This document shows positions 15,684-20,768 of a stretch of 34,082 bases of DNA, one piece after another. How positions within the stretch are numbered: the stretch's first letter is position 1; each line of letters opens with the position of its first letter. The stretch comes from Nocardioidaceae bacterium (lineage in GTDB: Bacteria; Actinomycetota; Actinomycetes; Propionibacteriales; Nocardioidaceae): the NCBI GenBank assembly GCA_013361955.1, contig JABFXA010000002.1, positions 1 through 34,082 of the forward strand. Direction: 5' to 3'. The notes beneath the pieces are model-generated. The model was not told the origin of the DNA. It worked only from the letters and a program-made list of their open reading frames with translations, and ran no database searches. The translations under genes were made by a program, and so were the position numbers.

Positions 15684-15711
15684 TTGCTCTATCTCATATA
15701 TGAGATAGAGT
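15684..15711 (+). promoter_or_regulatory. Promoter of the HTH-MurA fusion gene, overlapping a palindromic operator
   Basis: TTGCTC (15684-15689) and TAGAGT (15706-15711) are 16 bp apart. The -10 box ends 7 nt before ATG 15719, and no Shine-Dalgarno is present, so the mRNA is probably leaderless. Confidence 0.55.
15687..15710. promoter_or_regulatory. 24-bp perfect palindrome, probable operator of the HTH-MurA protein
   Basis: The half-site CTCTATCTCATA is followed directly by its exact reverse complement, with no spacer. It fills the gap between the -35 and -10 elements and overlaps both, the classical place for a repressor. It is notably AT-rich for this genome. The adjacent gene encodes an XRE-type DNA-binding protein, so autoregulation is likely but unproven. 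Confidence 0.8.
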
Positions 15712-15718
15712 GCGGCTC

Positions 15719-17245
15719 ATGGCTGACGACTACCTCTCTCGGATCGGGAACCTCATCCGCGACGCGCGCAAGCACCGCGGCTGGACCCAGCAACAGCTGG
15801 CCGAGGTGCTCTCCACCAGCCAGAGCGCGGTGAACCGGATCGAGAAGGGCCACCAGAACCTCTCGCTGGAGATGCTCGCCCGCATCGGCGAGGCGCTCGA
15901 CTCCGAGATCGTCGCGCTCGGCGGCGGGCCCACCCACCTGCGGGTCACCGGCCCGACCACGCTCTCCGGCGCGATCGACGTGAAGTCCTCCAAGAACGCC
16001 GGCGTCGCGCTGCTCTGCGCCACGCTGCTGAACCGCGGCCGCACCACGCTGCGCAAGGTGGCCCGCATCGAGGAGGTCAACCGGCTGCTCGAGGTGCTGG
16101 CCAGCATGGGCGTGCAGACCCGCTGGCTCAACGCGGACAACGACCTCGAGATCATCCCGCCGCGCGACCTCGAGCTGGGCCGGATCGACGAGGAGGCCGC
16201 CCGGCGTACCCGCTCGGTGATCATGTTCCTGGGCCCGCTGATGCACCTCGAGGACACCTTCCAGCTGCCGTACGCCGGCGGCTGCGACCTCGGCACCCGC
16301 ACCGTCGAGCCGCACATGACCGCGCTGCGCCCGTTCGGCCTCGAGGTGAAGGCCACCGAGGGGAGCTACCACGCGACCGTGAACCGCGCGATCAGCCCGT
16401 CCCGGCCGATCGTGCTCACCGAGCGCGGCGACACCGTCACCGAGAACGCCCTGCTCGCCGCCGCCCGCCGCGACGGCGTCACCGTGATCCGCAACGCCAG
16501 CCCGAACTACATGGTCCAGGACCTGTGCTTCTTCCTGGAGAAGCTCGGCGTCCGCATCGACGGCGTCGGCACCACCACGCTGACCGTGCACGGCCAGCCG
16601 GAGATCGACGTCGACGTCGACTACGCGCCGTCCGAGGACCCGATCGAGGCGATGTCGCTGCTCGCGGCCGCGATCGTCACCCGCTCCGAGATCACCATCC
16701 GCCGGGTGCCGATCGAGTTCCTCGAGATCGAGCTCGCGCTGCTGGAGGAGATGGGCTTCCGCTACGACCGCAGCGAGGAGTACGTCGCCCGGAACGGCCA
16801 CACCCGCCTGGTCGACATCGACACCAAGGTGTCCGACCTGCACTCCCCCATCGACAAGATCCACCCGATGCCGTTCCCCGGCCTGAACATCGACAACCTG
16901 CCGTTCTTCGCGGTGATCGCGGCGGTGGCCGAGGGGCAGACGCTGCTGCACGACTGGGTCTACGAGAACCGGGCGATCTACCTCACCGACCTGAACAAGC
17001 TCGGCGCCACCGTGAAGCTCCTCGACCCGCACCGGGTGATGATCGAGGGCCCGACCCGCTGGCGCGGCGCCGAGCTGGTCTGCCCGCCGGCCCTGCGCCC
17101 CGCCGTGGTGATCCTGCTCGCCATGCTCGCGTCCCGTGGCACGTCGGTGCTCCGGTCGGTCTACGTGATCAACCGCGGCTACGAGGACCTCGCCACCCGC
17201 CTCAACGACCTCGGCGCCAGCATCGAGACCTTCCGCGACATCTGA
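15719..17245 (+). CDS. XRE helix-turn-helix domain fused to a MurA-like enolpyruvyl transferase
   Basis: The 508-residue protein has an XRE DNA-binding domain (about 8-62: RDARKHRGWTQQQLAEVLS, then TSQSAVNRIEKGHQNLSLE in family order). From residue 73 a full EPSP-synthase-type double barrel like UDP-GlcNAc 1-carboxyvinyltransferase follows. Residues essential in E. coli MurA have counterparts: K92-N93 (KN pair), R165 in TRSVIMFLGPL, C189 in YAGGCDLGTR (PEP-binding Cys), R194, an Asp in LNIDNLPF, and the Arg in ALRPAVVILL. It therefore looks catalytically able as well as DNA-binding. It could be an enzyme, a nucleotide-sugar-sensing repressor, or both. ATG 15719 fits the leaderless promoter; GTG 15710 lies within the palindrome. 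Confidence 0.9.
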   Translation: MADDYLSRIGNLIRDARKHRGWTQQQLAEVLSTSQSAVNRIEKGHQNLSLEMLARIGEALDSEIVALGGGPTHLRVTGPTTLSGAIDVKSSKNAGVALLCATLLNRGRTTLRKVARIEEVNRLLEVLASMGVQTRWLNADNDLEIIPPRDLELGRIDEEAARRTRSVIMFLGPLMHLEDTFQLPYAGGCDLGTRTVEPHMTALRPFGLEVKATEGSYHATVNRAISPSRPIVLTERGDTVTENALLAAARRDGVTVIRNASPNYMVQDLCFFLEKLGVRIDGVGTTTLTVHGQPEIDVDVDYAPSEDPIEAMSLLAAAIVTRSEITIRRVPIEFLEIELALLEEMGFRYDRSEEYVARNGHTRLVDIDTKVSDLHSPIDKIHPMPFPGLNIDNLPFFAVIAAVAEGQTLLHDWVYENRAIYLTDLNKLGATVKLLDPHRVMIEGPTRWRGAELVCPPALRPAVVILLAMLASRGTSVLRSVYVINRGYEDLATRLNDLGASIETFRDI

Positions 17246-19897: not shown

Positions 19898-20185
19898 TCA
19901 GGTCCCGTAGACCCAGCCGCCGATCCGCCAGTACTCCCCCGACTCGCGACCCAGCAGCTGCGCGTCGACCAGGTAGCGGCGCAGTGACACGTGGTCGGTC
20001 TCGCCGCCCTCGCACACCCCGGTGAGGATCGCGTCGACCTGGCGCTCCGAGTAGCGGACACCGGGTTCGAACAGCTGTGCGACGTGCTCGAGGACCAGCC
20101 GGCGCTTCGAGGCCTTGCTCGGGACCCGCCGCAGCCGTCCGCCCGGCATGAACCGCTCCACCAGGCGCAGGTCGTGGTCGTCCAT
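19898..20185 (-). CDS. DUF2087 domain protein
   Basis: The 95-residue protein contains the DUF2087 pattern: SKRRLVLEHVAQLFEPGVRYSERQVDAIL, then DHVSLRRYLVDAQLLGRESGEYWRIGG in family order. It resembles a winged-helix fold, and such domains sometimes accompany ArsR-type regulators, but here it stands alone. ATG 20185 follows a TAGCGT box by 7 nt (leaderless). It is convergent with the UMF1 gene (17-bp gap) and divergent from rbpA. Confidence 0.85.
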   Translation of the reverse strand: MDDHDLRLVERFMPGGRLRRVPSKASKRRLVLEHVAQLFEPGVRYSERQVDAILTGVCEGGETDHVSLRRYLVDAQLLGRESGEYWRIGGWVYGT

Positions 20186-20384: not shown

Positions 20385-20768
20385 ATGGGAGAGCGCACAC
20401 TACGCGGCGCGCGCCTTGGCGGCCAGAGCTTCGAGGACGAGCGCGGCATCGAGTTCGCCGCGCGACAGAACATCGCCTACAAGTGCAAGCACGGGCACGA
20501 GTTCGAGATCCCGATGTCGGTCGAGGCCGAGGTGCCCGCGACGTGGGAGTGCCCGCGGTGCGGTGCCGAGGCGATCAGCCAGGACGGTCACGCGCCGGAG
20601 GAGAAGGTCGAGAAGCCGGTCCGCACGCACTGGGACATGCTGCTCGAGCGGCGCTCGATCAAGGAGCTCGAGGAGATCCTCACCGAGCGGCTGGAGCTGC
20701 TCCGCGGCGGCGAGATCGGCCCCGCGCACCTGCACCGGCCGACCAAGAAGAAGGCCCGGACCGCCTGA
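20385..20768 (+). CDS. rbpA: RNA polymerase-binding protein RbpA
   Basis: The 127-residue protein is typical RbpA. It has an N-terminal tail (MGERTLRGARLGGQSFEDERG), a zinc-binding core domain (AYKCKHGHEFEIPMS with C-x-H-x-H character, and WECPRCGAEA), then a basic linker and the sigma-interacting helix (HWDMLLERRSIKELEEILTERLELL in family order). It binds group 1/2 sigma factors and promoter DNA and stabilises the open complex. ATG 20385 has GGGAGGT upstream. A SigR-type promoter lies in the 5' region, implying induction by disulfide stress. Confidence 0.95.
   Translation: MGERTLRGARLGGQSFEDERGIEFAARQNIAYKCKHGHEFEIPMSVEAEVPATWECPRCGAEAISQDGHAPEEKVEKPVRTHWDMLLERRSIKELEEILTERLELLRGGEIGPAHLHRPTKKKARTA

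Follow-up and report, generated by a model that had tools for sequence, protein, structure and literature searches.

In trigger enzymes, among them PutA, BirA and NadR, a single polypeptide holds both a metabolic enzyme and a DNA-binding domain and acts on transcription; PutA is counted among the single-target regulators (PMC8249747). The HTH-MurA fusion analyzed here has the same arrangement, and these proteins are its closest functional relatives; it differs from PutA, BirA and NadR in that its enzyme is MurA, which performs the first committed step of peptidoglycan synthesis, and in that no target other than its own gene is detectable. From its predicted enzymatic and DNA-binding activities, we infer that the fusion works like a trigger enzyme. 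In BzdR, an enzyme-like domain serves as a ligand sensor and the protein controls a catabolic operon. XRE-shikimate-kinase-like regulators of this type (NF006015, PRK08154) likewise join an XRE domain to an enzyme-derived domain; unlike BzdR, the fusion has an enzyme domain that looks active and its target is its own gene. Against the NF006015/PRK08154 model, the HTH part of the fusion gives a weak match that does not reach the cut-off.

Fosfomycin targets MurA, the enzyme at which cell-wall synthesis begins. The controls on MurA in other bacteria that were found in the literature act on the protein, namely CwlM in mycobacteria, and ReoM and PASTA kinases in Firmicutes. In Streptomyces coelicolor, SCO5998 (MurA2) is described as one of a pair of UDP-GlcNAc transferases (PMC12161575) and has been connected with DmdR1 and SigB regulation (PMC12161575, PMC8346170); the passages that make this connection mention neither an HTH domain nor self-repression of SCO5998. 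The Streptomyces genomes sampled here have a standard MurA in addition to the fusion. SCO5998 is probably the Streptomyces orthologue of the fusion, an assignment made independently of its own sequence. No description of an HTH-MurA fusion or of its operator was found in a search of open-access literature; domain databases very probably have an entry for the architecture. Compared with standard MurA (TIGR01072/NF006873), the fusion shares the fold, the PEP-binding Cys and nine catalytic residues, but it carries an extra N-terminal XRE domain, and the UDP-phosphate loop, Arg232 and Asp369 are replaced.

Architecture of the fusion gene and its promoter

The window, the whole stretch of DNA that was analyzed, comprises 34,082 nt from a Nocardioidaceae bacterium (JABFXA010000002.1, positions 1 to 34,082), and all locus coordinates are window positions (Table 1). 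The original prediction of an XRE domain joined to a MurA-like enzyme was borne out: the open reading frame and the fusion are located as described, with an HTH_3 domain (residues 13-64) followed by a full MurA domain. The start codon is the ATG at 15719, in agreement with the orthologue starts; the alternative GTG at 15710 sits at the edge of the palindrome. PF00275 (EPSP_synthase/MurA) spans residues 76-493 (E 4e-45), and the EPSP_synthase/MurA fold is present over the full domain in both the Pfam and structure comparisons. The protein passes the NCBIfam MurA subfamily model NF006873 (312.9 bits, cut-off 297) and scores below the TIGR01072 equivalog threshold (297.2 bits, cut-off 392.7).

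Table 1. Features of the HTH-MurA locus (window positions) and paired standard-type murA loci (genome:contig:positions)
Feature	Coordinates	Strand	Remarks
-35 box TTGCTC	15684..15689	+	sequence; TnG weakly conserved here across 158 genes
24-bp perfect palindrome	15687..15710	.	inner 18 bp alone conserved
Operator core TATCTCATATATGAGATA	15690..15707	.	158/164 distinct orthologues match at >=14/16 positions
-10 box TAGAGT	15706..15711	+	overlaps operator end; TAnnnT conserved 99-100% in 158 genes
HTH-MurA fusion gene	15719..17245	+	508 aa plus stop; probably leaderless
XRE/HTH_3 DNA-binding domain	15746..15913	+	~residues 10-65; Pfam HTH_3 E 2.7e-14
Inter-domain linker	15905..15928	+	residues 63-70; predicted flexible, pLDDT < 50
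MurA (UDP-GlcNAc enolpyruvyl transferase) domain	15929..17242	+	residues 71-508; NF006873, structure match, invariant residues
Paired standard-type murA loci	G030:C1:6055582-6058185; G032:C13:169834-172456; G035:C1:863062-865722; G027:C1:879396-882113		

The AlphaFold model of the fusion has a mean pLDDT of 80.5. It places the predicted HTH helices at residues 5-20, 24-30, 35-42 and 50-60, the third of which is the recognition helix (QSAVNRIE). The linker is predicted to be flexible or disordered, and the idea of a short linker coupling the two domains rigidly was dropped on this ground. The Cys loop (residues 188-192) also has low pLDDT, as expected for a mobile loop. Against MurA crystal structures, the MurA domain aligns over ∼410 residues with Z scores of 38-40 and an rmsd of 2.4-2.9.

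The -35 and -10 boxes overlap the palindrome, as had been proposed. They are separated by a 16-bp spacer (15690-15705), and the operator covers this whole spacer and 2 nt more, at the start of the -10 box. From the -10 box to the ATG there are 7 nt in the window gene. Because the 6-7 nt before the start codon are too short for a ribosome-binding site, the mRNA is probably leaderless. Elsewhere in the window, a gene for the RNA polymerase-binding protein RbpA lies ∼3 kb downstream of the fusion (20385-20768, + strand), and a small DUF2087 protein whose function is not known is encoded at 19898-20185 (- strand).

Conservation, specificity and co-variation of the operator

The conserved operator is 18 bp long, TATCTCAnATnTGAGATA. 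A site matching it at 14 or more of 16 positions is found upstream of the fusion in 80/80 named orthologue loci, which include Nocardioides, Aeromicrobium, Kribbella, Streptomyces and Brachybacterium. The original prediction was to be abandoned if the palindrome proved not to be conserved upstream of orthologues; with the operator present at this level in 158 of the 164 distinct fusion genes, this test did not refute it. The 24-bp palindrome was described correctly as perfect in the window, but its full length is not the conserved unit. Information content equals background directly outside the 18 bp, except at the final T of the -10 box (TAnnnT) and at the start codon, and the three flanking base pairs at either end of the 24-bp palindrome are therefore chance.

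Genome-wide searches place this sequence at a single address. The 4.7-Mb genome of the organism contains one operator site even at up to three mismatches, at the fusion gene's own promoter. Among 39 genomes of relatives, exactly one site at no more than one mismatch occurs in 25, and none has two. A wider search covered 296 genomes of the class, 108 of which contain the fusion. The exact 16-bp pattern occurs in 57 of these 296 genomes, once per genome, and every one of these 57 matches precedes the fusion gene by 11-33 bp; none occurs in the 188 genomes without a fusion. In several fusion genomes without an exact match, the corresponding position holds a close variant, such as TAACTCAnnnnTGAGATA. 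Shuffling the window 100 times with its dinucleotide composition retained never produced the operator pattern. A chance palindrome is ruled out by the single genomic site, the shuffles, the conservation among orthologues and the invariable placement of exact matches at the fusion gene. A regulon beyond murA is not supported: in searches for the whole palindrome, the operator occurs once per genome. In genomes with both genes, no second operator was found at the standard murA at up to one mismatch.

Changes in the recognition helix are accompanied by changes in the operator. Aeromicrobium sp. Root495 has the operator TATCGCATATATGCGATA, a symmetric double change, and its fusion is the only one of the 164 with the substitution A37V in the recognition helix, accompanied by S34T. 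In two fusions from one genus of another family of the same class (L251 and L258), the segment TSQSAVNRIE has become MTGTDIEQIE or MTEQDIEQIE. The upstream regions of both contain no operator, the best match (8/16) being no better than the top match reached by chance. The MurA domain of L251, a full-length copy, is intact despite its decayed HTH. The MurA frame of L258 ends early, leaving an open frame of 394 aa. Judged from sequence, both loci would be natural losses of operator control. Co-variation and co-loss, although few in independent events, are as expected for a repressor-operator pair and suggest such a relationship.

Catalytic residues and the distribution of MurA

Nine residues (K92, N93, R165, C189, R194, D392, R418, R460 and R486) are invariant in 164/164 fusions. 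From our alignment, we take them to be the counterparts of K22, N23, R91, C115, R120, D305, R331, R371 and R397 of the standard enzyme. C189 had been singled out as the PEP-binding Cys of MurA, and this identification holds. At the C189 column, the standard actinobacterial MurAs of the set have Cys in 24 cases and Asp in 10, whereas the fusions always have Cys, a difference that may matter for fosfomycin sensitivity.

Other parts of the active site have diverged. In essentially all fusions, the UDP-phosphate loop PSVGATEN is changed to ERGDTVTEN (residues 235-240 of the fusion protein), Arg232 is replaced by Pro (residue 308), and Asp369 is replaced by Pro or Ala with a one-residue insertion (residues 456-458). 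The loop, Arg232 and Asp369 are conserved in standard MurAs, but may not be strictly required across the family. These replacements mark the fusions as a distinct, divergent MurA clade, in which substrate handling may differ from that of the standard enzyme, and they weaken the claim of a standard MurA.

The distribution of MurA was surveyed in 148 genomes of the order, comprising the organism's own metagenome-assembled genome (90% complete) and others at least 98% complete. A standard MurA scores over the cut-off in 46 of them; in the other 102, among them 35 single-contig genomes, the fusion-type match is the only MurA detected. Among the named genomes, the fusion is the sole MurA found in 11 of 17, including Nocardioides halotolerans, N. 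jensenii, Mumia quercus and Aeromicrobium massiliense, while Kribbella, Streptomyces, Brachybacterium and one Marmoricola have both types. MurB was found in all 12 fusion-only genomes examined. In one family of the order, two standard-type murA genes adjoin each other on opposite strands and occur together with the fusion, giving three MurAs (Table 1).

The search for a second, canonical murA gave a divided answer for the organism itself: none was found in its own 90%-complete assembly, but five of six genomes of the same genus have one, so the absence may be an assembly gap. With the catalytic residues invariant and the fusion the sole MurA found in 102/148 genomes, the fusion is probably an active MurA enzyme. 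The earlier description of the enzyme as apparently active is thus upheld by the nine residues and by its frequent status as sole MurA, and is qualified by the replaced loop, Arg232 and Asp369.

A putative self-repressing MurA and its alternatives

The comparative evidence makes it very likely that the fusion is a bifunctional MurA whose repression is confined to its own gene. An HTH_3 domain and a palindromic site at the gene's own promoter are both present, as for a regulator of the XRE family, and self-repression through the palindrome is strongly supported by conservation, single-site specificity, promoter geometry, co-variation and co-loss. The N-terminal XRE domain would bind the genome's one 18-bp palindrome, presumably as a dimer. 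Since the operator occupies the whole spacer and extends into the -10 box, the bound protein would be expected to keep RNA polymerase off the promoter; activation in place of repression seems less likely. The C-terminal domain, to judge from its fold, its residues and its status as the sole detected MurA in many species, would make UDP-GlcNAc-enolpyruvate, the first committed peptidoglycan precursor. Self-repression would result in negative autoregulation, by which the amount of MurA is set, and substrate or product binding may tune the DNA binding, as in other trigger enzymes, a guess that falls slightly short of an even chance.

In its stronger form, which is compatible with self-repression, this last step makes the fusion a ligand-gated sensor: UDP-GlcNAc, PEP or UDP-MurNAc on the MurA domain would alter DNA binding, so that murA transcription would depend on the precursor level. 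The MurA enzyme closes around its substrates, and this closure could offer a conformational signal. The HTH is kept fused to the enzyme in nearly all sampled lineages, and trigger enzymes are described as transcription factors when their substrate is absent (PMC8249747). On the other side, the linker predicted to be disordered (residues 63-70) lends no support to allosteric coupling, and plain concentration-based autoregulation accounts for every observation without a ligand. We regard ligand gating as plausible, while leaning slightly against it.

The original prediction had left two options, an enzyme that represses itself or a repressor built from a cell-wall enzyme. A repressor whose MurA domain has lost catalysis and acts as a ligand sensor only would fit the replaced UDP-phosphate loop, Arg232 and Asp369, and the presence of a standard MurA in many genomes (Streptomyces, Kribbella and most of the organism's own genus). 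It is nevertheless very improbable, because the nine catalytic residues do not vary and no other MurA was found in most of the near-complete genomes surveyed, and it fits poorly with the MurB genes found in fusion-only genomes and with an enzyme domain left intact where the HTH has decayed. Self-repression by an active enzyme is accordingly favored over a dead-enzyme repressor.

Just as improbable is the binding of another regulator to the palindrome, with the fusion's own HTH acting elsewhere or vestigial. DmdR1 and SigB have been linked to the upstream region of SCO5998 in S. coelicolor, but the exact operator is confined to genomes with the fusion and always adjoins it, and it varies and disappears together with the recognition helix. 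The least probable reading, that the fusion yields another enolpyruvyl product, like NikO of the same fold group, and that peptidoglycan starts from an unrecognized enzyme, draws on the divergent UDP-phosphate loop but would need an unknown MurA replacement in 102 genomes and runs against a score above the MurA subfamily cut-off (NF006873).

Self-repression by an active MurA would mean that control of MurA amount is built into the enzyme itself, an arrangement that appears to have been kept from Nocardioides to Streptomyces, and the sharply defined operator makes this idea directly testable. The divergent clade is also the only MurA found in most of the Propionibacteriales-like genomes sampled, with an active site unlike those that have been studied. 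More tentatively, and with less confidence than we give to ligand gating as such, the sole MurA of the cell may read its own substrate levels through its active site and set its own transcription, a regulon of one gene that would be a main control point for the start of peptidoglycan synthesis in much of the Actinomycetes.
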